This document shows positions 16,426-38,515 of a stretch of DNA of 64,000 bases, in pieces. A program made the translations under genes and the position numbers. Below the pieces are notes generated by a model, which saw nothing but the letters and a program-made list of their open reading frames with translations, searched no databases and was not told where the DNA came from. The stretch covers positions 47,487,169 through 47,551,168 of the forward strand of contig OX485806.1 of NCBI GenBank assembly GCA_950295325.1, written 5' to 3'. The first letter of the stretch is position 1, and every line of letters starts with the position of its first letter. Source of the stretch: Polytrichum commune (Eukaryota > Streptophyta > Polytrichopsida > Polytrichales > Polytrichaceae).

Positions 16426-16427
16426 TG

Positions 16428-17000: not shown

Positions 17001-18200
17001 CCTCCTCTGCGGTGATGGCAGGGTCTGTGTCCACTGCCATTCTGACTGTAACCCGCTGTCTGACTGCCGCCGCGACTGTAGTTTGGGTATATGGCAACAA
17101 AAGTTGGGTGTAACTTGGTTTACTTGGGTGACGGTTGCCATGTCATCCCGTTCGGATGACCGCCACCGTTTTGGTAGCCTTTGGGTGGCGTTTTTCGGGT
17201 GTCGGGTTTGGGTTTTGGGCATACGGTTGCAAGCGGGTTGGCGTTCATGGGTTGAACAATACACTGCCGAGGGTGGCCACCATATGTGGGTGGCTTGGCA
17301 CCCGTCTTGGATGGCTTGGCACCCATGTTGGGTGTCATTGGCGCCCCCGGGGCACTATTATTTTGGTCTTTTCCTCTCTTTTCCTTTGATGGGTTTGTAC
17401 TCTCCCAGGGTGTCTGCTACCCAAGCATAACCCGATTTTCCCAGATGAACGGGTTTCTGCACAGACAAGAAGTATTGTTCCATACGAAACCCTAGGGTGG
17501 GAGGGAACAACATTTGCCTTAATTTACACGCAGAAGCTTTATTTGTGACTAGATTTGCCTCATATTTGTGGGTCTAGACCACAATGGGAGATGGCAACCG
17601 TAAGCCTCCCGGTAACCGCAATTGCCATGAACATGCGGTGGACTCACATCCGCAATCCACCTCCTCAACATTGACAGCCAGGCTCCATGGGCGTGTCCGC
17701 GGTTTGGGGGCGTTCCCTGCACACACAATGGTCGCCTGCACAATTGCTTCCCTCAGCGACGCGTGTGGAATCGAGCCACCAGGATGTGCAATTGCTGCAA
17801 GTGAAGATGAGGTTTTTCATCAACAACAGCACGGGCCTCATCCAAGGGCAATCAATCCAGTGGGTTCATTTTCCACCTGATACAGGAGCCGAGCTTATGG
17901 TAGACTTGTGATGCTCGTTTCGGAATTACGTACAGAATTACAGTACTATTTACAATATGGAGCAACATCATATTTCACGCAGGTGATTTCGTGGGACTCA
18001 TCTCCTCTTCTAGGTAGGGCATCATCGAGTCCTGTTTTGAAAGGGTAGGCCAGGAGACAGGCGATGCATTGTTTATCAAATTAGTGACGTCTTGCAAATT
18101 CGTGATTGTCGAGAGAAAATCATTGCAATGAATCTGAAATGTAGATTTAAATTTTACACAACTTCATGGATTATGTTGAACTGGCTCCTGTCTAGGTTAC
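17001..18200. other. GC-rich sub-terminal region without a recognised gene
   Basis: Rich in 'gggtg' and 'cacccg' type sequence between about 17000 and 17400, resembling in composition the reverse complement of 36.7-37.3 kb on the other side. Bases 17960-18016 resemble 22510-22566 ('gcaac.ccatatttcac' followed by 'tcatctcc'). No protein was recognised. Confidence 0.45.
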
Positions 18201-18211
18201 AAATTGCTGAC

Positions 18212-19860
18212 CTGCAAGTAGGGGCCCTTGGCAGCCTAATCTCGGGAACTTCCGCTTCCATACTCTGCCCCTGCCAGTATAATGGTATCTTGAACAACAT
18301 CCTTGTATTTTTGCAAAGAAAATTGCAGAGCTACAGTTGTTACAAACAGTAGAGCGGACTAGATGTCTGCTGCTTGATAAGACCAAAGAGAAGAAAGTGC
18401 AGGTCACAGGAAACTCTGTTCATGGCCAAAATGCCTAAAAAACGTTACAAGCACATACCTTACCTGCGTCATATATGAAAAGCTTTTCTTTCGAAGGAAC
18501 GTGTATTGTTTAGGACCAACTTCTCCCTCCAGAAACATGTTCACAATCCGAATGTCTGCAAATGTCCCTCTTGCCATAATTTCATCGTTGCCACGGCGAC
18601 TTCCATATGAATTGAAATCCTTCCGTTGCACTCCCCGCTCCATAAGAAACTTCGCAGCTGCACTGCCTTTGTTGATATTACCAGCTGGAGAGATGTGGTC
18701 TGTTGTGGTGCTGTCTCTAAAATTGGGAAGACAATATGCATCCTTCACAGGCTTTGCGCCAGGAGGAGTTTTTGTCACGCTTTGAAATAAGGGTGGCTCA
18801 TGGACATAGGTTGATTTTTGGTCCCAAGCATATTGAGAACCTTTTGGTGTTGGTGGATTATTCCACATCTGATTGCCACTCGTGGTGGTTTTGTATGTAC
18901 TTTTGAACATCTCTGGAGTCACTGAGGATTGTACAACCTACACAAGGCACTCTTAACTCAAATCAGGGGTCACAACCTGGTTTGAACAAATTGGATGAAT
19001 AGCACCACAACGAATTTTGAAATTTATGTTTAGAATTTTGACTGCATTGTGTGAAAACTTAGCAGGGAAGGCTTGTATACGAGTTTTTGGGCACTTAATA
19101 GTCTTGGATTATGCACCTTTGCAATCCCCTCAGTTGAAGGCCAGATGTCATTCAGAAACACATCCTTCCCACCTTTACCCTTCCCAATAGGTTCCTTAGC
19201 AAAGTCAATATCGACCTGCTTGGGCAAGTCAAGGCGTCGACCAGAACAATTATGATATATATAAATTCTGCTCATGAACAGAGGGTCATAGAAATAATGC
19301 CCTCTGCAAGTCTGTGGATTTCAACCTTTCGTCAACCACGTCTAGAGGACTGGACAAGAAGATGATGTGATTTGCAGTCACCTACCGTCCCAGTGGACGT
19401 GTATGCAACTACCAGAGCAGGGGACGCCAGACAGTTTGCACGTATTAATGGATGCCCTCGACCTTCGAAATTCCGATTTCCTGTGAGAACTGCTGCTGCC
19501 ACGATATCTACAAGCAACACACTTTCCAGCAAATGTTCACTACACTTTCCAAACTTTCACAATGTTTTTGAATCAATCTAAACAGTCTGGTAGAATGTAT
19601 ACTGTAGAACTAGGAAGTCACCAAATTTCCTGATTGCCAGGAAACGATGTCTGCCTATTTGTGCCACTATCTCTTTAAAGACAAAGATTACTTAGAACCC
19701 CAAGTATCGTTCTTCGGTAAAAAAACATATTGTTGCAGTATGTACCATTGGCCACAATTGCTTTGGAAACATCTTCGTGAAGCTCCCCATAATTTCCAAT
19801 ACACGTCGTCCAGCCATAGCCCACAACACTGAACCTTTGTTTCATGTTGAACTTTTGTTT
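18212..19860 (-). pseudogene. Aconitase (aconitate hydratase) fragment, disrupted
   Basis: Five minus-strand exon remnants in the right order: ~19860-19746 (VVGYGWTTCIGN), 19507-19386 ([22 protein letters not shown]), 19215-19117 ([11 protein letters not shown]), 18937-18464 ([26 protein letters not shown]) and ~18312-18212 ([13 protein letters not shown]). They correspond to the middle and C-terminal part of plant cytosolic/mitochondrial aconitase, which isomerises citrate to isocitrate. Damage: the first Cys of the GYGCTTC iron-sulfur ligand motif is Trp; a one-base loss after 'EGEVGP' throws the end of the fourth exon out of frame; and the Trp after SSRD is TAG (18236-18238). The N-terminal half and the C-terminal end are absent. 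Introns are kept, so it is a DNA-level copy, not a retrocopy. It is the only captured fragment on the minus strand. Confidence 0.9.
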
Positions 19861-22050
19861 CTAATATGTCCTACCAAACATGGACTCCAACTCAATTATA
19901 CGTCCATTTTGGGGTTTTTCTTCTTTAGCCATTGCATATGCGTATCACCCCCCCACTTACGGCTCACATGTACATGTATCCATTACATTCAATTGTCGTT
20001 TTGAATATGTATTGATGTAGGGAGCATACACAACTTACAAGGTTCCTAAACTCCCAAAATTGGGCACTAAAACCCTATTTGTGTCTCTTCTAACCACTGT
20101 TTTTGCTCCATGGACTACATGGTTCTGACCATATGGGGTTCAACACAATCTGCATGCCAAAGTGTGCGTTTAGTATTATGCATGTGCAGGAACCTTTGTC
20201 CCGTGTTGACCTACTCTAGGCATGTTTGAATGGGCATGCTGGATAATTCCATGGCTTGATCAAGTTCTATGTGGCTTTTGACACCGATTCGTATGAAAAC
20301 CCAGCCATACCATAAACATCGAGGCTGGCTATTGGCATAAATTTTGAGATTGCAGGAAACATGTTTCCATGCAGGTTGTCGCTCGCCAAAATTCCAAATG
20401 GGATGGACCAAGAACATGCACGTGCATTTGCTTTTCCGCTCTCCCTTTTGTTTTTACATGCACACTGGTTGTTTGTGAATATTATTAAGTACAAGAACAT
20501 GTAGTCTACCTACTTCAGCCACAAATATTTGTGGCTGCTAATAAGTCCATATATGCTCAATTGACGAAATTGTGACTAATGCGGGCAAAATCACTTTGAA
20601 CGCACAAAATGTGCCATTGTGTAAATTACACAATAATGTCCAATCATCATTGGGTTCTTAGCAAAGAAATATGAACATGATCAGGTGCCTCGCGGGCTGC
20701 AAGTACTTCTGATGTGTTGTCCGCCCACACGGTTGCCCATGTGGGTGACAGTCACCAAACATGGTGAATGTGGCACCCACCTCAGCCATGTCCTCAGCTA
20801 GGGTATTGTATGTGCCTAGGTTAATGAGTTATATGCGTATAATCCTTCCCTCGCATGAAGAAGTCCTCCACGGCTGCCTGCCTGGGATTCTTTGGGCGTG
20901 CCAAATTATTGCGGCACGCTAACATTGGAGTTGTCCAGGTGAGTAGAGAGGTCGAGTTTCTTGGTGCTGGCTTCTTCCAACCTATATTCCAATGCATTGA
21001 ATGGAGAGGGCAATGCGAATTGAGGCATGCAGATGAGGGAAGAGGAGAGGTGGGAGGGAGCAATTGCGACCAGGGGATAGGGGGATTGGGGGGCCAACTT
21101 AAACGACCAGGGGCAAGAGGATGCGGAAGGCAAAGCGCATGCGAGTGTTTGTGGAAGGAAGGGAGGACATAGAGTGCATCAGGGATTGTGGAGGTAGCGC
21201 GCATGACGGAGGAAACGTAGAGGAGGAAGGGAGTGTGGAAGAGGGAGGGGGCATTCTGGAGGAAGGCTTTGTTGTGCAACAACCAAGCACCTACGAGGCC
21301 GACGCAACAAACGTGTGGCAAAGGTTCAGGAACGACTCCAACTATTATTGAGTGCAAAATCCAGCATGTGGATTGGATCAATTTCTTGGGTTTTGTTATT
21401 CTTGGGTTGTGGGTGTTCTCTCTTTCCGTCCGCCCGAACTGGAACCATGGAATGTGGTAAATGGTCACCCGCACAGTCACACCTGCCTGTTCTCCTCCAA
21501 ACCCTAGACCTAAAAACCTAATTCTCCTTTATGCAACTTGTTTTGACGCCATGTTTTGGAGGAATAGCAGGTTGGGAGCCCCCATTCCACTATTTTGTGT
21601 GCGGTGCAACCGATGCTTGCATTGTTGTATGTGTGTCAAGTTAGAATTTGCTTGTTGGAGGAAATTGTGGGTTCTTCGGGTACAAACCCAGACAACCTCC
21701 TCAAACCCTTATTTGTTGTCCACCTTTCGTGATGTCTGGCTCTGAGGGTGACAAGATTGAGCATGAGATTGTGGTTGGAGGGGGAGGGTTTGAAGGTGGT
21801 GGAGGTGGAGAATGAAGGAGATGTTGGTGTCCCAGTCAATGGTCCACATTATCACTCTGTAGAGTAGTTTTGAGAGGAAGATTCGAGGCTTTGTGTTCCT
21901 TTCGAGCAATTATCAGAGTGCATGATTATCATGTGGATGAGGGAGTGACCGTTCTGGAGGAGAGAATGCAAATTGGAGGAGGAGGAGGAGTTGGCTTATG
22001 GTGGACAAAATTGCAGAGTAGAGCACCAGGAGAAGGAGGTGGAATTTTCT
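19861..22050. other. Spacer between aconitase and MetAP fragments
   Basis: No recognised gene. Between about 20990 and 21260 the plus strand is rich in G and A. Bases 21775-21835 are a near copy of 27325-27391. A 219-aa minus-strand frame (21480-20821) is proline- and leucine-rich with no recognisable domain, and I judge it a chance frame. Confidence 0.4.
21775..21835 (+). repeat. Short dispersed repeat, copy A
   Basis: A ~60-base purine-rich module ('ttggaggggga.ggtttg.aggtggtggaggtggag', then 'aatgaaggagatg.tggtgtcc') that recurs at 27325-27391 with few differences. Here it lies ~220 bases before the first MetAP exon. The other copy lies ~70 bases before the coiled-coil fragment. Confidence 0.75.
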
Positions 22051-22055
22051 TGGCG

Positions 22056-23704
22056 ACCTAGGTTAGCGCAGGGCAAAGTGTCCCCTCGCTTAGCAGTTCC
22101 TAAGGAAATTGCTCGTCCTCCTTATGTTAATTTCAAGAAAGCACATGCGTTCCTTGATGATTATCAAATACAAAATACTGAGGGAATAGAGCGCATGAGG
22201 GCCTCTGGCCGCCTGCCGAAGGCCGCATAGCGCTTGGATAGGTGACATTCCTAGCAATTGATTCCCACCACTATGGTCCACTGAATTATAGTGAGAGTAT
22301 CCTAGTGAAACACATATTTTCAACCAACCATGTGGGAACCTGGGGGATTGCGCCTTATTGAGGGAGATTAGGGAGATTAGGCCTGGGTCGGCTTGTCCAT
22401 GCCCGTTCAAGGCGTTTACCCTTAAAAAGAGGCAGGAGTCTTCAAGGTCCCTCTCATCCTCGTGATGTCCAATTTGGAATGATATGTACAATTAGACTAA
22501 TCTGAAGATGAAGCAACACCATATTTCACACTGTCATCGGAGTCATCTCCCTCTCTACGTCTACTTCCAAGTTGTGAGTTTTCCACTCACCCATTTCTGA
22601 TGTCAAATTCTTTAGCATTTTGCATATCCCCTGTAACACCTTTAAGTCTGATGCGGTGGTTGCAGCCAGGTGTGACAACGGACGAGATCGATAAGGTTGT
22701 TCATCAGATGATCATTGATGCTGGTTCTTACCCTTCTCCTCTCGGCTACGGTGGCTTTCCCGAGAGCGTATGCACTTCTGTGAATGAGTGCATCTGTCAT
22801 GGCATTCCGGACTCTCGTCCTCTCCAGGTTTGTTCCCCTTTGGACCTGCACATGAACTTCAAAATAGTTAAAAGGAGCTAACAAGTTTACCTAGCCATCT
22901 CAAATTCAAATGCAGAAGTACACGATGGCCTTGATACTAGAACATTGGTAGGGATGGATGCTTTCCTTAGTAAAGGGAGGAGACCATGGAAGTGTATGTG
23001 TTTAAGGACGCATGACCTTACTGCACATGTTTTATTACGCGTGAAGCCTATGCAAAGGGCTTGTCTTTAACCTTCTTATCAAACATGAAGGTTATCACAT
23101 GTTTGATAGCTTTTAGTTCTGTTTTTCTTGTTAATAATGGGGAGGTCTGTGCAGGATGGAGATATTGTCAACATTGATGTAACAATGTATTTAAATGTAA
23201 GCTTTCTTTTCTTGTAATCTTCGTATGAACTGTAAACCTCAACTTGAATTTTCCTCTCCAGCAACATTTGTCTCCCAGTTTTTCTCATAAACCTTAATAC
23301 TACACTTCTGTTGAATAGAAGGATGTCAGACAGTTATGTGGAGCTGGAGAATAGTTTGTTGTTGTCATTCTTTGCAACAAAGTCATTTAACAAGGTCATG
23401 CTGATTGTAATGGCATAGCAGCGACTTTCTTGTGACTGGTTGTTTGTAAGTATGAGTGTGCTTTTACATTGAAGTGATTTTGTAAAGACTATTTTGAGTT
23501 TTCTATACTGTGAAATATGTTGGTAAATTAAGTTCTCTGGCCTGCTCTCCAGCTTGCACGACATATCTTGCTCATGTGAACGGTGTTGTGAAGTTTTAAA
23601 TGACCTCAATTTTGTGACATGATGAATGGCAGGGCTAGCATGGAGACACTTCAAAGACTTTCTATTGTGGGATTGTGGATGATGATGCCAAACAATTAGT
23701 TGAG
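22056..23704 (+). pseudogene. Methionine aminopeptidase 1 fragment, disrupted
   Basis: Four exon remnants are recognisable: ~22056-22206 (GKVSPRLAVP, YQIQNTEGIERMRASG), 22666-22827 ([42 protein letters not shown]), 23155-23196 (DGDIVNIDVTMYLN) and 23633-23704 (HGDTSKTFYCG). They match organellar-type plant MAP1, which removes initiator Met. The metal ligands in NIDVT and HGDTS are present. The Tyr expected before HGDTS is TAG (23636-23638), and the first exon runs into TAG at 22228-22230 before its expected end. The C-terminal third, with the remaining metal ligands, is missing. It is the first of eight plus-strand gene fragments. Confidence 0.9.
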
Positions 23705-24794
23705 GTGGATAACTGTTTTTATGACCTCTTTAAACTCTTCCCTTGGATTATTTTCATACATCTGCTTTTACTTGCTTTGTTTTGATGCCTTTTGGAAGGT
23801 TTGTCACTCCACACTTTTTTTTGATCTGGAGAGCAGATTCTAGTTCCTAATACAAATTTAAGGTGAGTGCAATTAATTGTTCTACCTTTTTTCCTTTTGG
23901 GGGTTGGAGGTGGGCATTAAGTGACTATTACAAGGTTTGTAGGATTGTCAAAGTCTCAACAAGTGGATGTAATGATGTAACTTCCATTCCAATTATATTT
24001 ATTTTCTCAGGGATATATATGCAACTCTGATCCTCGTAGCTGCATTGGTGTAATGTTTGCAGGAAGAGTATTGTCGAGAAGAAGTCTATAGGCGATGAAA
24101 GCAACTTCTGGCTTCTGGTGAGGCCACGTTGCCTGTGCTTTCTTGACCATCGGATTTGACCGATGTAAGCCTCCTCCCCTGATCTCCTCTGTTCCTGCCA
24201 CCACTCATCCACTGCGTGTGCAGACAGATAGACAAAGAAGACAGACAGACACTCACTCTCTTCACCTTCCCGATTACGATTTCTTTGCCGATTCTCTTCG
24301 CCAGAGGTCATACTTATTAGAGACACAAACTGTAATCAAGCTGGAGAAGATGTCCAACATGTGGATTTCTTTGCAATGGACTATGGAAATCGATGTATGT
24401 AGGTGATTTTGAGATGTATCGAAGGATTGCACATAAGAGTGGCCTGTTGAATTATTTGCGTGATGTGATGGTCCTCCAGCTTAGTTTCCTCTTAAACCCT
24501 AAACCTTTCTGCACCTGAAACCCTCAATCTAGAATTTGGCAGTGGATTCGGCCTTTTAGATCCTTCTTACAGAGACCGGGAGCTAAGAATCGTGGGTTTT
24601 CCCTCTACTTTGGTTGCAAAGTGATTACCAATTAGTCAATTTTAGCAGGTTCATGTGGCTTTTCAGTTGCTTTGAAAGTAGAAGGTTGTGCTGAAGGCAC
24701 GAAGGGTTGCATTATCGTGGAATTACAGGAGACGCTTGGGTGATACAGAAGTCACAAAATGTACTGGATGTTGTTGTTGTGGTGGTGGTGGCAG
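23705..24794. other. Spacer with possible unidentified exon remnants
   Basis: No gene was firmly recognised. A stretch near 24405-24480 reads DFEMYRRIAHKSGLLNYLRD and looks protein-like. Bases 24260-24305 also give a short plausible frame. Either could belong to a further captured fragment, but I could not name one. Confidence 0.3.
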
Positions 24795-25218
24795 GGTTCC
24801 AACTTCTGCAACGGCATCGGATATCAAGGAGGCCTATTACAAATGATCGCTTAAACAGTATGTGATATTGTGCAGCACAGTGCATTTGACCTTTTACACG
24901 CCAATTTTACATCATAGATTGATAAGTGGCATTTGTACTTACACGTTGTATTGCAGCCATCCAGATGAAAATTCTGATCCAGAGACCAAGGAGAACTTTC
25001 AAAAAATTGCTACTGTTATTGAGGTACTCAAGCGGAATTGTCATCCTTCTTCCTGGATTCTGCATTTGTGCTCCAAATTGGCATCATTGAAGGCTTATGC
25101 TGGGCAGCTTGCTCCAAGCATAAATTCTGAATATGGTTGTTTTTTGGTGTTTGGCTAGATCTTGAAAGATGAAGTGAAGCGGGAACAATATGACTATGAG
25201 ATTGCTCATCCAGAGGAG
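24795..25218 (+). pseudogene. DNAJC25-like J-domain protein fragment, disrupted
   Basis: Three exons: 24795-24856 (VPTSATASDIKEAYYK), 24957-25023 (HPDENSDPETKENFQKIATV) and 25159-25218 (ILKDEVKREQYDYEIAHPEE). Together they give a J domain with the HPD motif that stimulates Hsp70. The ending QYDYEIAHPEE is typical of the DNAJC25 family, which are ER-membrane J proteins. Exon 1 contains a TGA (24844-24846) where a basic residue would be expected. The first exon donor GTATGT and the following exon join in phase across the HPD motif. The signal peptide, membrane segments and C-terminal part are missing on both sides. Confidence 0.85.
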
Positions 25219-26150
25219 GTTAGCCACGTCTTTTCCTCAGGGCCATCTTCAGATTGAATGTGTATATGTGCACGCTAGTCTAGTACATTTGAGGTACATT
25301 TGAATACTAAAATTTTTGTAGGTCCATCAATCAGATAGGGCCAGAGTATTTGGGCTGCTCAATCCTTTGATGTAGGTTCCAATTAGAGATAGTTACGGTG
25401 AAGTCCTTGGCATTCCGGAATCTAAGGCCTCATGACCTTTATACTCTGGTCCAAATTCATCAATTGGGTTTTGAGACTTGTTTTTGCAAAACAAATAGTT
25501 GTGGTTTGGTGCAGTTCTTGTGCCAAACTGCTAGTACTATCAAGCTTACAGTCCCCAAGCAGTATGTGCATTTCTCATGTTACCACCCAGTTTTGGATAC
25601 CGAAGTTGGAGTTTATGAAATTCTTGCTTCAGAATCGTTAGTTGCCTCCAAATGCTATCTTTTCGTTGTGATCCCTGCAAGAATTAGTAGGTGATGCTGT
25701 GTCGATTTTTGAGTTCGTCAGAGTAGTACTTCTTCGATTTCTGTCACTTGTATTATTGGATTGACGGTGCATAAATTCATCACAAGAGGAAGCTCTCACT
25801 CATCGTCATATCATCACACACTTATTTGTCACTCCAATCCATCAGGTTTAGGGTTTAGCATCCGCTAGATTTTGCACTCTACAGCGTCTTGCATAATTCA
25901 AGTGTAATTCTGTAACATGAATGTGTTGTGTTGAAAAAAATTCATTGAATTTGTTGGTTCCTCGTTCCAGGAATCGCCACTGCTAAATTGTCAGTGAAGC
26001 ATCATGCAGGTATTAATTCCTCTTTATCATCTTTCAACTCTATGAATTACCTCCCAGCATTGTCCTTAAGAGTTCTTTCACCTTAGTGTAAAGCAGGAGA
26101 CAAACACACTCTGAGCGAGAGGACCAGATTTTCTAATCCACACATGGAAT
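25219..26150. other. Spacer, no gene recognised
   Basis: Contains a 98-codon plus-strand frame (25398-25694) with no recognisable domain and a short exon-like piece near 25972-26010 flanked by 'cag' and 'gta'. I cannot assign either. Confidence 0.35.
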
Positions 26151-26157
26151 TGTGCTC

Positions 26158-26247
26158 TCACATGGCAAGCCAGTAAACATCAACAGTCAACTTGAGCATC
26201 TACAGGCGAAGTATGTTGGAACTGGGCATGCTGATGTCAATCACTTG
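26158..26247 (+). pseudogene. SF3B5 (SF3b10) splicing-factor fragment
   Basis: About 30 codons, including QLEHLQAKYVGTGHAD, which is the hallmark N-terminal sequence of SF3B5. That protein is a small (~85 aa) subunit of the U2 snRNP SF3b complex. It is preceded by VNINS, as in the family. The frame reaches a TAA within 'cttgtaagtg', exactly where the family continues with a few residues and then FEW. The remaining ~60 residues are absent downstream. Only the first third of the gene is present. Confidence 0.85.
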
Positions 26248-26249
26248 TA

Positions 26250-27440
26250 AGTGTACACATCTCCTTGGACTAGACATTCCTGTTGTCATTGTGCAGGACT
26301 TATATACTTATGGATGAAGACAATCGGAATGTGTACTTGTGCATGTATATTGCACACAGTGCATGCATGTCCATATCAACAAAGTAGCTTGTGCTACAGT
26401 ATTCGTATTAGGCCGCACATGTAACATTCAGGTCCCTTAAGTGGAGAATTCTGAAGTTTTTTGCACATTTGATTTGAAAGCTGGTTCAAATCTATAAGTA
26501 TTTATTATTTCTTTTTCATTGTTGCAATTCTTCTGTATGATTCTTTGGTGGGGAAACTTGCACATATGATTATGAGATGGACTTCTTAGGATGATGAGAA
26601 GACAACCCACTGTGTAATTCTTCACCCATTTTTCTTGCCTCATTCTTGTGCAATTCTATTGGGCATAATCATTTTCCATTATTGACATCATTGTCCATAT
26701 TGACATTTTCCAGTTTTTCCGCCATATGTTTGATTTTTTTGCGAGTCCTCCTCATATTGTAGTCTTCTATATGAACCTATGGTTGATATCACATGCAGTC
26801 ATGGAATTCTTTACAATATGCGGCACATAGTTATGCTGTGGTTTTGGTGTGGTGGTGTCTTGGTGAGTCTTGTGAGAATGTAAAATGGTCGTTTACGCCG
26901 TCCAAGAGGTTGTCCAGATCTATATGCCAGTCCGAATTTGGTATGGACAGAGAGAGCGCGCGAGCGAGCGAGAGAGAGATTCAGGGGGGGGGGGGTTATT
27001 GTGCCTGACTACCACAAGTTTTGATCTTGAATGCCATAGTAATGGCAATCACGGGTCTGCTTGCAAATGGTCTGTGGGGACTCTATTCCTCTGCAGTTTC
27101 TTGAAAGGAAACATCACTTGAAAAAAAGGACTTGCTATGTCAGCCTTTCAGCATCTTCGGGGTTGTTTATGAAGTCTGCAACAAAGTCAATAGTTTTAGA
27201 GCGAGCATCATTAAGCTCGGAAGACAAAAGTGCACTACAAAGAATTCGCGTGTGTCGGAATGGGGCTTTGCGTGTGGGAGGGGTCAGGTTAGGGTTCCGT
27301 GGAGGGTTCTGTGGTCGGACGAAGTTGGAGGGGGAAGGTTTGGAGGTGGTGGAGGTGGAGGTGCAGAATGAAGGAGATGCTGGTGTCCTAGCACCTAGAG
27401 TAGGTTGAAGATTTGAGAGAGAGAAAGAGAGAAGGCCGAT
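26250..27440. other. Spacer with simple repeats, no gene recognised
   Basis: Holds a purine stretch with alternating GA and GCGA at 26950-26980, directly followed by a run of 12 G (26984-26995). It also holds copy B of the short dispersed repeat at 27325-27391. The minus strand from ~27400 to 27135 is open for over 80 codons, but the protein is not recognisable. Confidence 0.4.
27325..27391 (+). repeat. Short dispersed repeat, copy B
   Basis: Second copy of the module at 21775-21835, in the same orientation. It differs by a 4-base insertion and a few substitutions. It lies just before the first exon of the coiled-coil fragment. Confidence 0.75.
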
Positions 27441-27457
27441 TGTAGGCATCAATATGT

Positions 27458-29234
27458 GTGCGAGCTCAAGGGGTAGATGGTGAGGCGTTGAGACAGCTTC
27501 AAGAGATTCTTCGTAAAACAGTGGATTCACTGATGGCTCCTCTTGATGGAAGACGAGCTGATGAAAACTATCACAGTCCAATAGCTAAATGACGGGTGTC
27601 AGCCCTCTCCGAAGATGCACCTGAGTTTCTAGCTCAACAGTTGCTTGGAGAACTTGAGAAAGCAGCTGCAAAGGTAGTCGAGCGTTTTAATGAAAGAATG
27701 TACCTTTCTCTTGCTCTGTTTGGGAGAAGAAATGTCTACGTTCCAATTTAGATCGAAGCCCTTGCTGCAGCTTCCTTTTCCATCTCCATGCTGCTTTCTG
27801 ATCTATTAAACAACATATCCAGAGGGTGCACCTGTACTAGTACTGATGTGAACCCTCTCTCGTTTGTAAAGGTTGCAGGCATGGAGAGCCAGATGATCAG
27901 CTTGAAGCAGTATGTGCGCGAGACTGATGCCCAACGTGAGAAAGTTGAGCTCAAGCTTGCAGAGGCCATAGCTCGTGATCACCAAAACCAAGTGATTCGA
28001 GAAAGCTCGTCCTTTGGAAATAATTGTCGATCCCTCAATTTTGTTCATGTGGTGATCTAACTTGTCATTGTTTACTAAGTTTCATTCTCTCGATTGCAGG
28101 AAAAATTTGAGCGTGAAATCAATGAGCTAACGAGGCAGCTTCAAGAGAAGGAGACAGCTTACGATGACTTGGTGCGCAGTCAGAAGGTTGGATGCTCTAG
28201 AATATCTTTTACTTCCACACAATGTAGAGACAGAATCTTCCAATGTCTTCAATACTCTCTACGTCCCACGGTTTTGATCTGCTGGCCTTGAAGCAAAGTG
28301 TCAGAAATGTTTTATGGGGGAAGATAGACCACGGTCCCTTCTTTGTAATTATAAAGGGGCTAGAACAAGTATTTCTTACAAGCATTACAAGCATAAGGAG
28401 AGCCGATTACAGGAGCGCATGTGGACTATAGGATTTATATTTTGCTGGTTGTAGCAGAAAATGAAAGTTACCGTTAGCAAGTTTGACAATCAAGGCATAG
28501 TCTTGAGTTTCACGAAGGGAGACTTCTTAGGTTGCAAGGTGCGCACAGAGATCTGAAATTATCTTGGTCTGGCAGGTGATGTTCCAAGTTAAGTCAAAAG
28601 AGATAGCTGAATTAAAAGAAGATTGCCAGAGGCGTGATGCAGCCCTTGATGACATTACGGCTGCTGCCCAAGCAACCCAAGAAGCAAGTGATCAAGTAGT
28701 TTCCCAACTTTCACACTCAATTTATCCACCCCCTTGACGTGCAATATGGATTTAATTTTCTTGCTTCAAGTGAATTTTTTAGGGATCATCTTACACCTCG
28801 TTATGGCTGACTCTTGTGGTGGCTCTGCTTCTGTAGAGATTGGCAGTACTGGAGGATATTTGTAAACGCAAGGACTCAGCAATATATGAGCTAAAACAAG
28901 AAATTATCGCTCTGGAGAGCAAGGTCTGCTTCTCATCTCAAGTTGGAAATCTTTTCTGCTTTTGCTACACTGCAAAATATTTAAGGGATGCAAATGAACT
29001 GTTTGTTGTCATCGCAATCATGTTTTTATCACGAATCTCACACAACCATCTCTTCTGATTCTTTTGCTGTTCCAGGTTCATGACCCCAACATCCGATCTC
29101 CTCTCTATTGCGGTGACAGGAGGCGAAACTTTAAAGCAGTCCCATCTTCCACTGAAGAAGTCCTAGCCCTTAGAACATACATTCAACGAAATCTCGCAAG
29201 AACATACTTGGACCCGGCCATCGTCACCCATTGA
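27458..29234 (+). pseudogene. Coiled-coil protein fragment, C-terminal part, unidentified
   Basis: A series of phase-compatible exon-like stretches: 27458-27673, 27752 onward, ~27878-27983, 28100-28186, ~28576-28700, 28839-28923 and 29077-29234. They encode a charged, heptad-like helical protein (for example REINELTRQLQEKETAYDDL and ICKRKDSAIYELKQEI) that ends in a natural-looking C-terminus, YIQRNLARTYLDPAIVTH then TGA. I do not recognise the family. An in-frame TGA at 27590-27592 interrupts the first exon, after which the frame continues coherently (SEDAPEFLAQQLLGELEKAA). It could be a cytoskeletal or trafficking coiled-coil protein, but nothing in it decides this. Confidence 0.65.
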
Positions 29235-29589
29235 TGGATTTGCTCTGGCAGTTTAGTGTAGCTGGTTAGTGCATTGCCAAGTTTGGTGAAAGCCACAATG
29301 GCTTGTGTGCCAGGAATATGTGCGAATCGAGCTAACATTGAGGTTAATCCTGCTATCTTTTAGTGGCACGCGTGTACAGACAACTGCCGATTGCTTTTGG
29401 GGGGAATAAGGCTATGTATGGGGAATTTGTGTTTGGCATTATTGACATTCAGGTTGATCCTGCTAGCTTTTAGTGGTTCTCGTGTGGATGCACTGGCCGA
29501 TTGCATATTGGGGGAGTAAGGCTCTGTATGGATGATTTATGAAGGGTATTTTTGACTGCCTATGCAATGCATCTTGCGGGGGTGACACT

Positions 29590-29710
29590 ACATTTGCAGT
29601 GTTTCAACAGTTGGTAATTGACTACGTTGTTGGTGAAATCCACAAGGACCCATGCCCTTACAGGAGTGGACCTGCTGCAGTGCTGCGAATGTTCGGAGTC
29701 ACCCAAGAAG
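29590..29710 (+). pseudogene. DNA polymerase delta catalytic subunit fragment, one exon
   Basis: One exon between 'ttgcag' and 'gtgaca' encodes VFQQLVIDYVVGEIHKD followed by SGPAAVLRMFGVTQEG. This matches the N-terminal region of plant POLD1, just before the conserved HSVCC..HGFEPYFY segment. That segment does not follow here. The protein is the replicative B-family polymerase; only ~40 of ~1100 residues are present, with no exonuclease or polymerase motif. It lies ~360 bases after the coiled-coil fragment, in the same orientation. Confidence 0.8.
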
Positions 29711-29719
29711 GTGACACTT

Positions 29720-30630
29720 GCCTCCTCCTCGATTCTTGGTTTCCGATGATTCTGTTAGCTGAGTTCCGGTTGTTTCTTGATTGGCCAGGTTTTTCTTCCA
29801 AAAAATTGAACTCTATGAACATGCAATTTGATGTGCAATATTGCAGAGTTTAGATTCTGGTTTTACCCCACCAAAATGTCATTGTCAATACGGTATTTGT
29901 TCAAATTTCAGGTGCAGGGTTTAAGGATGAAATGGCACCCAAGTCTCCACACATAAGGAGTTCGAGGCCCATACTATTCACTTTTTCCTTAGTTTCCTAA
30001 AGACCTAGCTTATGCTCTGTTGCATGATTGTGATACACTGAAGTCACACAAGCACCATGACACATTTCTGGAGCCATTGAAGATTCAATGAAAGATATTC
30101 TATTATAAGCTTAAAAGAGATTAGCCTTCAAAGGCAGACTGGACATATTCTCAACCTCTCGCATATATTTATGCGAGAGAAGGATTATCACACATGAAGA
30201 AACAAGAGCTAAGCATGTTGATATCTGATATTTGAGACAATTTCCATAGTAAAGTTATACTCCATGTGTCGGAGCCACTCCATGGCGAGCCCCGGGAATT
30301 TTAGGGGATGCTTCATGTGGATATTCTCGGCTTGTCTACAGTTGGAGCTACTGCATGACTTGATATGAGATCTTGAGTGGGATCATTACGTTTGGAGGAT
30401 TGACTAAAATGTATTGCCTATTGTACGATTGAAGAAGAGGGACGTGTGTCGGCTCCACTCACTTCGTTACTATACTTTTATTCCCCATATTACAATTTAG
30501 ACAAAACAATATGTACCTTAGCATTCCGGTCACAGTTATCGCTCCAGTTTGTTGAATAACCTTAAACAGCCTCGAGTTCATAGGGTTTGGTAAGATTCTG
30601 ATATTTCATACTATTTGGTGATATGGGTAC
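29720..30630. other. Spacer, no gene recognised
   Basis: About 900 bases between the POLD1 and ATG10 fragments with no coherent coding frame and no recognised repeat end. Confidence 0.4.
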
Positions 30631-30633
30631 CAG

Positions 30634-30792
30634 GGAATATGATGCGTGCCTGGGATGGAACTCTCTCAGCTGCGGAATTTAAGAAGGCGGCAGTGCATCT
30701 TGTGAAGGTATGGGAGCGGCACTGCCCTAATTCTCCACCTTGGACCTGGCAGCGGAGGCAGCAGAACCCTGTGATTTCCCCACTTGCACACG
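30634..30792 (+). pseudogene. ATG10-like (autophagy E2 enzyme) N-terminal fragment
   Basis: Bases after 'taccag' encode WDGTLSAAEFKKAAVHLV, then a Trp/Pro-rich segment (VWERHCPNSPPWTWQ). This resembles the N-terminal part of plant ATG10, the E2-like enzyme that conjugates ATG12 to ATG5. A GT donor-like site follows ('cacacgtgagt'). The catalytic Cys region is absent and the next recognisable sequence, ~200 bases on, belongs to UTP20. The similarity is short, so the family call is less sure than for its neighbours. Confidence 0.65.
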
Positions 30793-31039
30793 TGAGTACC
30801 GAGATGGGAATCCCCGAGGAATGAACTCTTTAATGCCACATACAATTTTCTTCGATATAATGTTGTTTCATTCAGCTTTCTCTGGTGAGGTGAGATGAAC
30901 AATTTGTGATACGGTCTTGGCAGCCCTGTTGCTGCAATTGTGGAACTGTGACCTTACAGCCAAGGACTTCAAAGACTAGACAATGATGATGAAGGTAGTG
31001 CAGGTTGGGTGCAGGTTGTGGGATACTTGGAGCTTCAAG

Positions 31040-32490
31040 ATGTTCAGGTGAGAGGATACTGAGAGGTGTTAACCAGGTGTTTGTGGTAGAGAGTGAGGTG
31101 GCAACAGGTAATGCTTTATATGAAACTGTGGAGGAGGGCCTGGATGTGCTTGAGAAACATCCTAAGGGAGAAGCAGGGTCTGTCAGGTCGTTGGTGGAAA
31201 GGTTTCTACTCCCACATGTTCGCAATGGAATGGCCTCAGAACTGCTTGTTGTGAGAAGGGTAAAACACCAAACACATCACTCAATTTGCATAGTTGTCAA
31301 GGACTGCAGGGTGCTGATGATCAATTGACGATGTGATATTTCTCGTTGTATGAAGTTGACTTCAATTTTGACTTCAGATATATGTATATATCTATCTATC
31401 TATCTATCTATCATTTGATCAGTGTTAGGATCTCTGGATCAAGTCTATTTTGACAATCATCTCAGTAACACAAGGGCTAGAATGGCCCTAAGGAGTATTT
31501 ATGGTGTGCAACTTATAAGTGCAAAAGCAGACTTCTGGAATGATGTATGAAGTTGAGTTCAGATCCTAACAAATCAACAGGTTCAATGTGGTCATGCAAC
31601 CAGGATGAATATTTTATGCATAGCATTGTCTTACAAAGTTTAATACTGCAGGAGTGGGTTGCCTTACTACGCGAGATGGCGTTGCATTTTACAACCATTC
31701 CAGCCTTGAATGAGTACCAATGCCTCCTGAATTCATATCTAGAAGTTGACTTCTTCAACAATGTTGTGCACCTTCAGGTTAGCTTACGGAATTTATACCC
31801 TTCATGCAAGTGTGAAGTATCTCCTGGTCTAATGTTCAATACATTCATTGTGAGGGCATTTCAATGTGTGAATTCTACTAATCATCTGGTGCGGTGGCAA
31901 GTTGGCTGCTTCCAGTTGGAGTGGTAAATAGGTTGCATGGACTTTCATGCCTGCAGTCATTTAGCAATACAATCTAATGAATATTTATTTACTTGAGGAC
32001 GACAATGCTGACAAATGCTCAATTGTATGCAGATCCATAGAAGAATCAAGGCTATGACAAAGTTCAGGACTTTGTGCTCCTCTGGACATTTCTCTCAGGT
32101 AAACTGCTGGGATTTTCTGGAGGATAATATTCTGAAGTCCTTGGAACAATTTTGTTGCCATTTTTCGTCCATGTGATGTCATTTCTAAGTTGTGTATTCT
32201 ACGTTCCTTTTTTGTCCAATTTTTTGAATTATTCGATTTTGGTCGTAAAACATGCACTCTTCAACAGTATCAATAAGAGTGTGGCCTTTGATTTGGGAGT
32301 GAATGATTGCAATCCTGTTAAGATTGCTTACTGCTTATGTGGCCTTGTCCAGGGGGCACTCTTGAGGATTTTTGTGCCCCTGTTCATGAACCCCATCGTC
32401 GAAGCAACTGGTGACAAAGAAGGAAATCTTGTGGGGTCTGCTATAGAGACCATCGCCTGTGTTGCTAAGCAGTTGCAGTGGGAGGAACTA
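31040..32490 (+). pseudogene. UTP20 (U3 snoRNP HEAT-repeat protein) internal fragment
   Basis: Exons: ~31040-31259 (SLVERFLLPHVRNGMAS, ending VVRR), 31652-31777 (EWVALLREM, DFFNNVVHLQ), 32033-32098 (IHRRIKAMTKFR) and ~32353-32490 (FVPLFMNPIVEATGDKEGN, AIETIACVAKQLQWE). Spliced, this reads as a stretch of the large HEAT-repeat nucleolar protein UTP20/DRIM, needed for 18S rRNA maturation. In the family, 'VVRREWVALLREM' and 'FFNNI.HLQ.HRR.RAL' are contiguous, as here. Only ~180 residues of a ~2500-residue protein are present. All frames are open. The homology stops about 100 bases before FtsHi sequence begins, so this is a chimeric junction. Confidence 0.8.
31381..31413. repeat. (TATC)n microsatellite
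   Basis: Six perfect TATC units preceded by TATA-type repeats, within the first intron of the UTP20 fragment. Confidence 0.85.
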
Positions 32491-32591
32491 AGGGTCCCTA
32501 GCTCCTGACTTGTAGCTCTTGGAACATATTCTTGGTTCCTCTTCCAACATTAAGTGTTGACTACTTTGTGACTTGATAAATATTGGGACAG

Positions 32592-35500
32592 GTACATGGA
32601 CGGAACAAACCTACGGCAGAAGAGGTGGACTATGATGCTGTAGCAGAGATGACAGATGGTATGGTGGGAGCCCAACTTGCGAATATTTTGGATGTAGCAG
32701 CCCTTGCTGTACTGAGGGATCGACGCCCTGAGGTTGGTCGCAAATTCCTGAGTTGAAGTCTTTGTGAGTTTGGTGAGCCTTGTTCAAAGGTTTAAAATAT
32801 GATGTGCAAGCTGTAATTTATTTGAGCTTTTGAGATACCGTCATATATTGAGGGAGGTTTGACTCTCCTTTCCTGTAAATACAATAAGTTGGGCACTCTG
32901 AGGAGTTGTTTCTAGGTATTCTTCATATGTAATGTTCTATCACAGCTTAACTATAAGTGCCTAAGAGGCCCAATCCAGGTCTCTTTGTCCATGTATACGT
33001 GTGTTTGAGCTATATACTTCCAATTTTAGCCAATTGTGTCAAAATGACCCTGTCTAAAATTAACTCATTCTTCAAGTACACTTTTTAAATTGGTTGAATA
33101 CCTTAATGTTATTGAAGATTTGGGTTCAAATACACAGCCTGGGTGGCATTGGATGCAAGTATATACTCAGTATATTCATTGTTAAATTCACATTTGAGTA
33201 TATTTCGATTTTCTCCTTGACATGAGATGATTTATAAAATAAGTTCAAAACTCATAAATATAAAATGTATGATTTCTAGACTTGACGAAGGCTTGCAGAA
33301 ATTGTGTATATGGCTGTACATTGAGCCATTTGGTCCTTCAAGGGTTAAGCTACGAGTCATAATGTGACCCAACTTGATCTCTCTAATCTTGTTTTGATTC
33401 TGTGAGTATCATTTGTACTGTTCTTACATGTGATTTGTTTGTTGGTGTCATAGATTACCACAGATGACTTGCTGGAGGCTGCCCAGCTGCAGGAAGGAGG
33501 TCACCGTGATCCCCGTCCTCGAAGTGACTATCTATTGTGGATGCTTGCTTTAAATGAGGCTTCAATGGCAGCCTTCGCTGCAAACTGCCCAGACTTGAAG
33601 CAGATTCAACTGGTTTGTTTCTCGAGTTCTTAACTCAGCACTTTTTTTTGGGATATGTTTTGACACAGAGAGTTATCCTTTAACTCCATGGGACTTTCCG
33701 TCGGGAGTGGGTCCCCTCTGATATTTCATTGGCGGTTTTGCACACAATATCCATAATTTCTTTCCACTTTTGGTGCATGCTCAGAGGTAATGTTTGAATT
33801 TGAATGAAGAGCAAGCTGTTTCAGTTCATTGAGGGCCAAACTCATTTTAGCATCTCTTGGCATGCCATATTGAGTTTGACCCTTAATGAATCAATATAGA
33901 ATGTTCAAACCTCCCACACTAACTCCAAGCATGCACTGAATACTTACCGAACATGGAAAGTGTTGTATGCAAGACAACGAAGTCCTGACCAGAAGTCCCT
34001 TGGAGAAAGGATAGTTATAATGCATCCCTGTAAAGCTTTGTGAAATTCTTCAAACCTCCCTTTGTTTTCTCCTTCCTTTTAGTTGTTATCTGCATTATTA
34101 GGGTTGCAATTTATAATATCTATCTATTTTATTAGCATCCTGCTGACTGCACTGGGTATGCCAGGGATTCTAACACCAAAATACTTTTTGCAGGTCACAA
34201 TTGTGCCCAGGATAGGAGAGGAGAAAGGTGCAGTCAGATTCAGGACTGACCACACCAAATTTGAACTTCAATCTATCAGGTATTTGCAACCTGCTCGGGA
34301 ACACAGATATATAGAAACAATGTGTTTAGACTGGATCCTAGTTGAGGGGTATAGGATGGCGGAAGTGAAGCATATTTGAATCTTAATTATATCTTATCAG
34401 TGAAATCTATCAGGGTTGGGAATAACCAATGCTTGCAGCCATAGGTTCAGTGATGAACACATATATATGTCTTCGCATTCTTGGGACAGATCTAAAGATA
34501 TATCTGCAGGTTATTGATATTAGAAGAAAGACCGCTTTGAAATGATAAATATAGTGTTGCTTGGCAGAGGAACCAAATCATTAAGTATTTGCATGTACTG
34601 AAACTTGACTTCAGTCTGAAACAATAGTGTGCTGGAGGTCTTGGCAATGTTTCTACCCAACTTTAAATTGTGTTGTTATACAGTCGACAGGGAATGCTTG
34701 ATTACATCACAGTTCAGCTTGCACCTCGAGCAGCGGATGAAATCTGGAATAGTGTTGAAAATGTAATCTTCATTCCATTTTTGTATTCCATAATTTTAAT
34801 TTGACACTGAAAGGCTGCTTTTGTAGTACAAATAGGACTTATGAGTAGGATTAGCTGACCTTTACCTTTCCAATCCCAGATTGCATTTACTGCTAGAACA
34901 TTTTAATTGCCGTACATATTCTTCAATTTTCCAATTTCTCAATTCTAAAATCTGATCAAATATGCTGTGATGATCTCACATTCTGAAAGTTTATGTTTGC
35001 AGATGAGCACAATATGGGCCGATACAGTTGATCAAGCCCGTGCTACCGCTCGTGACTTTGTGTTTGCAGGACTTTCCGAAAAAGGAGATCTGTATGGTCT
35101 ACACAATTGTGTGTACAACTATGAATCTGTCATGGTATGTTCCTCTATTTTTCATGAATCCAAAGCTAGAAAACGTTGTGATGAATTATGTAGAAGTTGT
35201 CTGACAAAACCTGGAAGCCTTTGAAGGTAGGGGTGGAAATTGTTGAAAAACCTTATTGCCTTATATTGGAGAACACCCACTTTTGGCCTATTCCTGAATA
35301 ATTAATCTTTCTTTTTCACCATCTAACCCTAAGTGTGTGCTCCTGGTTATGTGCAGTCAGTGGACATTGAGGCATTGAAGGTGATAAAGCAGTGCTATGA
35401 CCGTGCTATTGAGGTATAGATTTTTTTTTCCTGGCCTTTTTATCTGAATTTCTTAATTGTGAAAGATTCAAGAATCTGTGATTTATAGGATCATTGTGGA

Positions 35501-35736
35501 TAACATGATTTGTTGGATGTGTTTGGCAGTACTTGAAGCGGAACGAGAAGTTAGTGAACAAGATAGTTGAGGTGTTGGTAAAAGAAAGAGTTATTTGACA
35601 GGCCGAATTTGCAGAGCTTGTGGCAACATATGGGAACCTTGACACACCTCAGCCTACACCACTGGAAGTGAAGAATCGTAACCTTGCATCTTTTCAGGAA
35701 GGCATGATTGCTGAGAAGCGAGCCCTCCGAAAGTGA
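32592..35736 (+). pseudogene. FtsHi-type inactive protease C-terminal half, one stop
   Basis: Seven exons: 32592-32732, 33454-33612, 34194-34279, 34684-34762, 35003-35134, 35357-35413 and 35530-35736. They begin in the AAA lid (EVDYDAVAEMTDGMVGAQLA), pass through the M41 peptidase-like domain (ITVQLAPRAADEIW, MSTIWADTVDQARATARDF) and end at a natural stop (AEKRALRK). The zinc site HEAGH is replaced by NEASM (LALNEASMAAFA). This is typical of plant FtsHi proteins, protease-dead members of the FtsH family of the chloroplast envelope import motor. An in-frame TGA at 35596-35598 interrupts the last exon. The N-terminal membrane region and most of the ATPase domain are missing, because UTP20 sequence lies directly upstream. 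It is the largest fragment of the array. Confidence 0.85.
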
Positions 35737-36340
35737 AGGAAACTCATTTTCCAGAAACCAGTTGCTTTACAACTTGTATCAAGTGACCCAACTTGTATTA
35801 AGATCATCCACAGTATTTTTTCACATGGAATTGATTGATAGGGATGCCTTTACTTCCAGCCAAGGTAGTAGTTGCAGAGAGAGGTATTAGTGTGTTGGAA
35901 TACTCCGGCAGTTGTTTTGTTCCATGCAGGACTTGAAAATTTAGGTGAGCATACGGTAGTCATAGCATGCACCAACACTGAAACATGTTGGTTTCCCCTG
36001 ATCCAACTGCAATATCTGTAGAATTAATAGAGCCATTTGGAATTTTGACAAGACTATTCTTCTTGGACACATTTTTTCCTTGGAAGAGAGGTGGTGGCAA
36101 TCTTTTAGATTGCTGTTGTTAATTTTGAAAAAGCAGTGTGAAGTAACTGTATAGCACTTGGTGTTCCTGTGATTTTTGATTCTGGCAATTAGGATGTTCT
36201 TTCTGATGGAAGTGTAGTATAGAAAATGATGTTGGGTTGACAGCATTGAAATAGACTTTGAGATGGAAGTGGAGCAAAAGCACCGACAGTGGAATTGTTC
36301 TGGTAATGTGAGCCAATAGTTATCATCTCAAAATAGTGAA
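35737..36340. other. Spacer, no gene recognised
   Basis: About 600 bases after the FtsHi stop codon; probably begins with its 3' untranslated region. No further coding frame recognised. Confidence 0.4.
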
Positions 36341-36344
36341 CCAC

Positions 36345-36605
36345 CCAACACCACCCGACATCCACCCGGCCCCCACCCTGCCACCCACGACGCCCACCTG
36401 ACACCCACCGACCCCCACCCTGTCACTGAGGACGCCCACCCGACTCCCACCTGACACCCACCATGTCACCGAGGACGCCCACCCGACCCCCACCCGACCC
36501 CCACCCTCTCACCAAGGATGCCCACCGACACCCACCCGACCCCCACCCTGTCACCGAGGATGCCCACCCGACCCCCACCGACACCCACCCGACCCCCACC
36601 CTACA
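36345..36605. repeat. C-rich minisatellite
   Basis: Irregular tandem repeats of 'cacccgacccccaccctgtcaccgaggacgcc' type units, about 30-55 bases long, with 'gacacccaccgaccc' variants. Strongly strand-biased: almost no G-runs on the plus strand. Lies just inside the right sub-terminal region of the block. Confidence 0.8.
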
Positions 36606-37324
36606 CTAACACGTCAACACCCATGCCCGAGTGAACACTGGGCCACCCACACACACCGAACAACCCTAAACCCATTGAACGCCACCCACTGACGGGTAAC
36701 GAATTTCACCTATTTGGTCACTTGCAAGCCGACGTGGCATGCTTGGATAGGACAATCAGAAGCGAAACCAGCAGTGGTGTCCATGGGGGTGAGTATCCAC
36801 CCGAATGTCACCTCCGTGGGTAGCCTATACCCGACCCGACACCCAACCCGGTTTATGGTAGTGCAATATGCCACCCAATATGTCCACCCTCGGCCGGTTA
36901 GTTCGGTGACCGGTATGCGAAACCCGTGAACGGGTAACTTGTCATACCCTCCATGTACTCTAATGTACAACGTGTCAACACATGATAGGTGGATGGCATG
37001 TGTGCACCCACAACGGTGGCCCTCTTGGTATGTCCACCGATTCGGGTAGATGATGCGCACCACAAAGCACCCAATTCCGGCGCACGTCACCAAGAGGGCA
37101 CCTACCCAATGTCACCCTAAACCCAATCCACCCCACCCATTGTGGTAGAATGGGCAAAGGGTATGCATCACCCTTGGGATGGGGACCGTCACCCACAGAA
37201 GCCCCAAAGGTGTGAACAGAGGCATTTTGGGTCCGTCACCCTGCTTTTAACTAGGCCATCAAGATTGCACCGACAAACCACTACCCACCCATACCGGTGG
37301 CCTTTTACAGTGAAATTCCTGCTA
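36606..37324. other. GC-rich sub-terminal region, right side
   Basis: Rich in 'cacccg' and 'gacccg'; resembles in composition the reverse complement of 17.0-17.4 kb, but I could not align it base by base. No protein recognised. Confidence 0.4.
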
Positions 37325-38515
37325 CCCTGCAGGGTTGATTTGGACAGGATTTCTTCTAGTGACTATGTGTAACCCCAAATTTTATGCATTGAAATTTGTA
37401 GCAATTTTCCATATGCACTTCTTTTTTTTTATAATAATTGCATTCTAAAAATTATTTCCCACTGTTACTCCTCCCAAACAAATGCAAACTCTCTTATTTT
37501 ATCAGTTATAGATGCCTCTACCTCACATCATCATTGATGTGACACAACTAGACAAGGTACTCTAAACATGCTATGTCCTTTGCTCACATGGCCACAATGA
37601 AATTCACAATCACACTACACTCTCAAATCTACAAGATTGTGCACTCCAACTACATTGAGTTTGTGTTGCTTGCTTCAATGTATAGTGTTCAAAGACCAAA
37701 GAAGAAACCGCACTACTTGCTTCCAACTTTGAGGTACTATAATGAAAGACCAAAGAAAAACCAATGTCAAGGCTATAGCCTTCAATGTAAACACAAGAAT
37801 AAAGAGGAACCAATGAACAACGAGAAGGCCAAGAATGTGAAAGGAGGGTGCAAGAATTGAGAAGTTGAGAATATGAAAACTACATAGTGCAAAAAGATTT
37901 ATGAAATTGGTTTGGAAGATTCATGAAGTTGCTAGAGGTAAATGTCCACTATCATGAAATTGAGGTGTGCCACATGTCATGTCGGTTTGGAAGAATCATG
38001 AACCAATTTAGAACATTCATGAAATTGGTAGAACATTCTCATAACATTGGCTAAACGTTTCATGAACTAGCTTGGAATTTTCATCAAATTAAGTTTGCAC
38101 TTTTGTGAAGTCATCTTACCAAAGGAGTATTAGGTCACATTAATGATGATGTACACATAGTCAGTGTAGACATGGGTCCAAGGTTGAATAAGGGAGGTCA
38201 ATCAAAATTTGGGTAGAGCTACTAGTGGGGAGCTAAGAATGTGGAGCAATTAGGAGAATCTTAGACATGATGTATTGTTCTTTGTGAAATACAATTATAC
38301 AATTCATGAAATTAATTTTGTGAAGTTGTGAATATGGGTACCAAATCATGAAATTGTCACAACATGTAGTGAAATTGGCTGAAGGTTCATGTAAAGTTGG
38401 TTGTCTATATAGTGAACTTGGTTCATGACTCCAATGCAATTGATAGAACTTATTGCTAAATTGGTTTGTACAATCATAAAGTTGAGTTTCCTTTCATCTT
38501 ACGAGATTAATTACA
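37325..38515 (-). repeat. Right arm of the long-range inverted repeat
   Basis: Blocks 37325-37375 and 38170-38515 match the left arm in inverted orientation and in the same order. Between them are ~800 bases not found in the left arm, rich in 'ttcatgaa' and 'aaattggt' phrases (about 37860-38100). Bases 38094-38122 are an extra copy of the 'tttggtaagatga.ttcacaaaagtgcaaac' piece found once in the left arm, so this arm has been internally rearranged or duplicated. Confidence 0.75.

Follow-up and report, generated by a model that had tools for sequence, protein, structure and literature searches.

The stretch analyzed here, henceforth the window, comprises 64,000 nucleotides of Polytrichum commune (contig OX485806.1, called C4 below; C4:47,487,169-47,551,168), and the genome searched with it amounted to 407.8 Mb in 64 contigs. 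It contains pieces of nine host genes, all enclosed by a single element of 20,389 bp (16,973-37,361), which is very probably a non-autonomous CACTA-like transposon of the Pack-CACTA type, in which the exon-intron pieces of these genes are flanked by terminal and subterminal repeats. A first-pass annotation, made from the letters alone, had described eight plus-strand fragments with their introns, and these were indeed found about as described, with support from Pfam, PDB or a source locus; the aconitase that it named as a ninth piece is also real, but lies on the minus strand. The place it gave was about right, although the mapped blocks of the eight run from 21,837 to 36,334 rather than from 22,056 to 35,736. 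The nine pieces are the following.

18000 (or further left)-19842, minus strand: aconitase, from the middle almost to the C-terminus, with introns (PDB 2b3x, 3.8e-84, residues 497-780)
21837-24074, plus strand: MetAP1, 5'-proximal exons (Pfam M24, 3.6e-19 with spliced exons; PDB, 2.2e-21)
24702-25694, plus strand: J protein, three exons, left edge set by the query (Pfam DnaJ, 6.4e-19)
25696-26300, plus strand: SF3B5, 24 residues of the N-terminal part recognized, right edge set by the query (Pfam SF3b10, 1.3e-7)
27509-29243, plus strand: coiled-coil protein, six exons, cut within the last exon (relatives P0122-P0127; source locus)
29258-30401, plus strand: POLD1, one recognized exon at 29600-29710 (PDB, 0.016, weak)
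30398-31046, plus strand: ATG10, 5'-proximal (source locus on C3, PF03987, 9.4e-15)
31059-32484, plus strand: UTP20, four exons from the middle of the protein (PDB, 2.5e-7, first three of the four exons covered)
32482-36334, plus strand: FTSHI2, last seven exons and 3' flank (PDB 8xku_F, 1.5e-77, residues 591-857 of 876)

POLD1 is the piece with the weakest support, and the DNA_pol_B_exo1 match at a related locus (0.0059) is also weak. The J protein was labeled DNAJC25-like in the first-pass annotation, and that label is of its making. UTP20 was identified after its four exons had been spliced, protein searches with single exons having come up blank, and ATG10 was identified through its source (C3:28525570-28526218, minus strand, 98.8% identical to the window piece), while Pfam and protein searches with the window exon itself gave nothing. 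The coiled-coil piece had no Pfam match near the curated cut-off and found only relatives without names; the C-terminal part of these relatives may resemble filament-like plant proteins.

All pieces are incomplete and look like pseudogenes. The source of FTSHI2 (C7:25387536-25391378, 98.7%) includes an upstream AAA domain missing from the window copy, which is thus a true fragment; moreover, the source is open through the matching exons, whereas a premature stop interrupts the copy in the window. One stop codon each is found in the DnaJ and coiled-coil pieces, and the last coiled-coil exon changes frame relative to P0127. Among the 27 plus-strand exon pieces tabulated, 25 are preceded by AG and 25 are followed by GT, a count that is partly circular since the exon edges were placed by eye with the help of these same signals. 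Interspersed repeats with many genomic copies lie within two of the pieces, at 33669-33997 in FTSHI2 (about 79-83% identity) and at 22213-22555 in MetAP1 (about 69-74%), as scored on the best 40 candidates.

The closest copies of the pieces are scattered over the genome. They were found at C4:22045190-22047029 for aconitase (94%), at C4:28969611-28972153 for MetAP1 (90.5 and 93.7%; the window piece is about 299 bp shorter than the source, with the gap at 22210), at C7:13485881-13487613 for the coiled-coil protein (98%), in two parts at C6:11797775-11798253 (94%) and C6:11807141-11807818 (97.5%) for POLD1, and at C7:37421341-37422757 for UTP20 (96.8%). Thus the closest copies (C4:22.0M, C4:29.0M, C7:13.5M, C6:11.8M, C3:28.5M, C7:37.4M and C7:25.4M) do not stand together in the order of the window. 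This dispersal over C3, C4, C6 and C7 also bears on whether the array is a segmental duplication or an assembly artefact. For two of the fragment pairs, adjacency is also seen at other loci, as a duplication would have it, but the junctions are precise to the base and a target duplication stands at the element ends, so that this explanation has a very low probability; the earlier view, too, was that the array is no segmental duplication.

The ends of the element were located by searching outward from the fragment array, and consist of these features, L048 being a family relative described further below.

16970-16972, no strand: left target-site duplication ACT, equal to the ACT at 37362-37364
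16973-17003, plus strand: left terminal inverted repeat, whose leading two bases are TG, not CA
17004-17392, plus strand: left subterminal region with TGGGTG repeats (L048 alignment, motif count)
36335-37330, minus strand: right subterminal region, 16 TGGGTG, all on the minus strand, with a 42-bp minisatellite; shared with relatives
37331-37361, minus strand: right terminal inverted repeat, CACTAGAAGAAATCCTGTCC... (terminus comparison and pattern scans)
37362-37364, no strand: right target-site duplication ACT, equal to the left ACT

In ungapped comparison, the inverted termini (16,975-17,003 and 37,331-37,359) are identical at 27 of 29 bases, while 60 dinucleotide shuffles reached at most 23 of 29 and 30 comparisons with other chunks of the window at most 22 of 29. 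The right end has an exact CACTA-type start, CACTAGAAGAAATC, and the left end reads TGCTAGAAGG; both ends of L048 carry CACTA, and a radish CACTA end has been given as CACTACAAGAAAA (PMC7210773). An exact 3-bp target duplication, ACT/ACT, flanks the element. The subterminal motif TGGGTG occurs five times inward and once outward in the left region and 16 times inward in the right one, and its longer form TGGGTG[GT]C, counted on the plus and minus strands, has counts of 3/0 (left end), 0/9 (right end) and 1/0 (interior), and outside the element of 2/1 on the left side and 0/0 on the right. This asymmetry between the two ends is as in CACTA (En/Spm) transposons, and the arms are common to relatives. 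The minisatellite in the right subterminal region has a period of 42-43 bp and occupies 36351-36621.

The terminus belongs to a family in this genome. When three mismatches were tolerated, a terminus pattern matched 112 forward and 107 reverse sites (219 in all), whereas its reversed control had 0 matches in either direction, and the right terminus of the element was its sole exact match in both the window scan and the genome scan. Of the sites, 85 have no more than two mismatches, and among these are 17 neighboring pairs less than 60 kb apart, which are oriented inward in 13 cases, outward in one and on the same strand in three. Eleven other termini, the best matches of the genome scan, were fetched for comparison; from the terminal base inward, the right arm aligned to nine of them (297-965 bp, 75-94%), and had merely 31 and 53 bp in common with the remaining two (L037 and L047). 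The left arm (16975-17392) matched the opposite end of L048 with 87.6% identity over 419 bp. L048 is 7,633 bp long (C1:77356608-77364241) and has its own target duplication, AGA/AGA. Family termini also enclose sequences seen in the window: the inward pair C4:20774303/20796020 contains a POLD1 piece matching 29,258-29,507 as well as a copy of 27,402-27,511, and a MetAP1-like piece at C4:42.09M falls within the terminus pair C4:42,055,437-42,103,528. The POLD1 piece at C4:20.783M appeared to share the left breakpoint of the window, an idea that was dropped because the match starts at 29,258 simply for the reason that the window POLD1 starts there. At C2:40356613-40395111, four family termini were seen within 40 kb, three of them on the same strand, possibly one of the tandem clusters from which fused elements have been proposed to arise. 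A scan of viral contigs for the terminus gave 0 matches.

Taken together, CACTA-like ends, the 3-bp duplication and the terminus family place the element in the Pack-CACTA type, and in neither the Helitron nor the Pack-MULE class. The hallmark of Pack-TYPE elements, i.e., captured coding DNA between the ends with no transposase found, is present as well. Several observations nonetheless weigh against this assignment or against parts of it. The left terminus begins with TG where CA is expected. A 14-base terminus pattern (up to three mismatches) was not enriched in the window (9 observed, 7.6 expected), and when the arms were aligned over their whole length with gaps, the score was 203.7, compared with a shuffle maximum of 205; since these two tests were unhelpful, it is the ungapped comparison and the relatives that carry the point. 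Pfam scans of the element, covering all but the minus strand at 27,000-27,400, gave no transposase, and L048, the sole relative examined, has in its plus-strand frames a DDE_1 domain, which we take to be of the pogo/Tigger type, and not the usual CACTA transposase (Transposase_21/TNPD type). This domain may represent a nested insertion, a captured gene, the family's own enzyme or a sign of an unusual family. No other locus with the complete mosaic was found among the best-scoring genome candidates, which showed partial sharing only, so that mobility after assembly, despite the target duplication, is no more than possible. The three to four bases shared at joints between blocks, given below, could arise by chance. 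Lastly, two minus-strand hairpin-plus-CTRR sites inside the element exceed what shuffles produce.

These two sites, at 17,549 and 19,610 (shuffle mean 0.03), speak for the view that a Helitron, i.e., a rolling-circle element, captured the fragments, and maize Helitrons typically carry intron-containing fragments of multiple genes on the same strand. In both sites, however, the stem is 6 bp long and stands 13 bases from the end, and the one at 19,610 falls within the aconitase block; a crude scan for Helitron 3' ends was empty at the right edge on both strands and at the left edge on the plus strand. With the CACTA-like ends, the 3-bp target duplication and the terminus family also opposed to it, a Helitron is very improbable. 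A Pack-MULE could in turn be bounded by an outer inverted repeat (16,418-16,747 and 38,065-38,489), which is 81% identical on the two sides of the array and is accompanied near its edges by two direct repeats of 9 bases, imperfect by one mismatch. This outer repeat lies outside the CACTA ends, however, its sub-blocks are out of order, and no exact direct repeat of 9-11 bp was found at its edges. The same repeat also occurs near C4:28.966M, and is therefore a dispersed one into or beside which the element may have inserted; we regard a Pack-MULE as scarcely credible. Hence the first-pass annotation was right that a DNA transposon had captured genes, but the vehicles it proposed, Helitron or Pack-MULE, do not agree with the ends, the duplication and the family, which are CACTA-like.

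The Pack-CACTA reading leaves the question of how many captures were made, and here it was found that some donors are already joined elsewhere. At C5:44,419,127-44,424,229, POLD1 is joined to ATG10 by a junction identical to that of the window, with 98.3% identity over 29258-31046. The C5 chimera extends past the window block on both sides, and the window block is thus a sub-piece of an older chimera; as judged from these sequences, POLD1 and ATG10 were joined before they entered the element. In three-way comparisons, unique differences numbered 0 in the window, 6 in C5 and 17 in C6 for the first part of POLD1, 9, 4 and 7, respectively, for its second part, and 3 in the window, 5 in C5 and 5 in C3 for ATG10, so that a closer tie between the window and C5 is visible in the first POLD1 part only. 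The C5 chimera lies inside a unit of 18,466 bp (C5:44415522-44433987) with inverted repeats of 3,611 bp that are 99.9% identical, and one of these repeats has its inner edge no more than 4 bp from the point at which the ATG10 similarity stops. No match to the termini of the window element was found within the 20 kb searched around this unit, nor was there a clear target duplication. The C6 copy of POLD1 is split by about 8.9 kb (C6:11798253-11807141) with a 4-bp overlap; this insert is absent from the window and from C5, and most likely entered C6 later. F-box and FAD-binding matches directly follow the POLD1 exons of C6, and the locus at C6:11.8M, which had been considered as the POLD1 parent, was accordingly downgraded to closest copy, as it is possibly another mosaic.

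The DnaJ and SF3B5 pieces likewise occur as one block at C3:50295372-50296972 (96%). Other copies of this block, whole with a gap or partial, and some of them reordered, are found on C1, C2, C3 and C6 (94-97%), and separate, more diverged halves at C2:27.49M (83%) and C1:47.62M (85%). Since the pair is multi-copy elsewhere, it probably also entered ready-made. Eight source genes had been counted as eight donors; the count of genes stands, but that of capture events was overstated, since two pairs are joined elsewhere, and for the nine genes there were at most eight, and probably seven, capture units. The shared orientation is affected in the same manner. Eight of the pieces are indeed on the plus strand, but with the aconitase antisense the figure is eight of nine (p=0.039), and when pre-joined pairs are counted once it becomes 7/8 (p=0.070) or 6/7 (p=0.125), and is no longer significant. 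As for other loci with the same fragment order, these two pairs were recovered, but the full array was not seen among the best-scoring candidates. It may tentatively be proposed, with rather more doubt than conviction, that the chimeric blocks form a shared circulating pool, in which POLD1+ATG10 and DnaJ+SF3B5 would have been built once, multiplied, and taken up by unrelated types of transposon. If true, such a pool would amount to exon shuffling among transposon families, beyond the transfer from gene to transposon.

The sequence between the captured blocks offers evidence on how they came together, and includes three stretches of note.

19839-20217, no strand: family-shared sequence between blocks (six long matches, 78-87%)
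24071-24311, no strand: dispersed repeat adjoining MetAP1 (90.8% in L043; 24074-24217 at 93% at C4:28988804)
27402 (set by the query)-27511, no strand: family-shared sequence abutting the left side of the coiled-coil piece (three matches)

For four of the six matches to 19839-20217 (C2:38333848, C2:40398672, C2:40352671 and C5:10543193), a listed terminus stands 2-4 kb farther out. The stretch at 27402-27511 matches C4:20778474 (92%), inside the terminus pair C4:20774303/20796020, C2:2702318 (97%), 1.3 kb inside a terminus, and C3:54610843 (99%), with no listed terminus close by. Family sequence thus stands beside the aconitase and coiled-coil blocks, which fits a fusion of neighboring family members. 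A 68-bp stretch to the left of MetAP1 (21,774-21,835) is 85% similar to 27,324-27,391 to the left of the coiled coil, which hints at part of a repeated element. The idea that 24,074-24,217 stems from a site lying 16.6 kb downstream of MetAP1 was considered and then abandoned, as the same stretch is the dispersed repeat.

A different picture is seen farther right. Several breakpoints, the mapping of which had been suggested as a check, could be placed to the base, and at POLD1/ATG10, ATG10/UTP20 and UTP20/FTSHI2 the blocks abut without element sequence between them. The bases GATT are common to both sides at POLD1/ATG10 and GAG at UTP20/FTSHI2, while ATG10/UTP20 has a 12-bp filler. These joints are compatible with repair by end-joining or template switching, though three joints are a small sample. 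They are also the evidence opposed to an assembly solely by repeated fusion of neighboring Pack-CACTA elements, each with contiguous chromosomal DNA. Such a model has been described for Pack-TYPE elements (PMC8903248), and is favored here by the family sequence at 19,839-20,217 and 27,402-27,511 and by the cluster of four termini in the 40 kb of C2:40.36-40.40M. We consider fusion as the only process unlikely, albeit far from negligible.

If the element is indeed of the Pack-CACTA type, we would give nearly an even chance to the two routes having acted together, with repair copying producing the abutting blocks and fusion joining larger parts. In such a scheme, a transposase supplied in trans would mobilize the element by binding to its terminal repeats and to the subterminal TGGGTG repeats; broken or excised family members would be repaired by copying other loci, whereby pieces would be added, joined through a few shared bases or a short filler. 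Adjacent family members would then be fused, as argued for Pack-TYPE elements (PMC8903248), family sequence remaining between the blocks, and at least one donor was chimeric before capture. If the element is transcribed, the retained splice sites would give chimeric mRNAs.

Comparable elements are known from other organisms. Tgm-Express1, a soybean CACTA element (PMC1947982), likewise carries fragments of several unrelated host genes with exons and introns, but is 5.7 kb long with five genes, compared to 20.4 kb and nine genes here, and chimeric transcripts have been shown for it. Tgmt*, a 20.5-kb CACTA element of soybean (PMC2613891), is similar in size, in its 3-bp target duplication and in its asymmetric subterminal repeats (four in the left 159 bp and 24 in the right 732 bp); it encodes a transposase, unlike the window element as far as the Pfam scans found. 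Non-autonomous elements with terminal inverted repeats (TIRs) that captured coding DNA, sometimes from several loci, have been reviewed (PMC13317346), and the present one differs from these in that at least one donor was chimeric beforehand and several blocks lack intervening element sequence. Shared bases at breakpoints are also a feature of the Pack-TIRs of animal genomes, for which gap filling with template switching was proposed (PMC8277862), while here many donors are joined in one plant element. No bryophyte Pack-CACTA was found among the listed matches of searches in open-licence PMC papers, which is no proof that none is in print. The locus represents CACTA-like gene packing in a bryophyte-like plant in which closest copies, breakpoints and sibling elements are all readable, and the order of capture events, be they repair copying, fusion or the uptake of ready-made chimeras, is therefore directly testable. 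Its informative part is that one donor, and probably two, was already chimeric.

Outside the element, an apparently intact RNase E/G-like gene was seen at 8658-15592, 1.4 kb to the left of it. In a tree of 22 chosen rows, it grouped with a JGI protein (77% identity in the tree alignment), and the next supported set includes liverworts, Selaginella and one further row. To the right of the element, a retrotransposon gag domain was found at 46740-47144, and pieces of a Tc1/mariner-type transposase (HTH_Tnp_Tc3_2, DUF7769) at 56865-58042.

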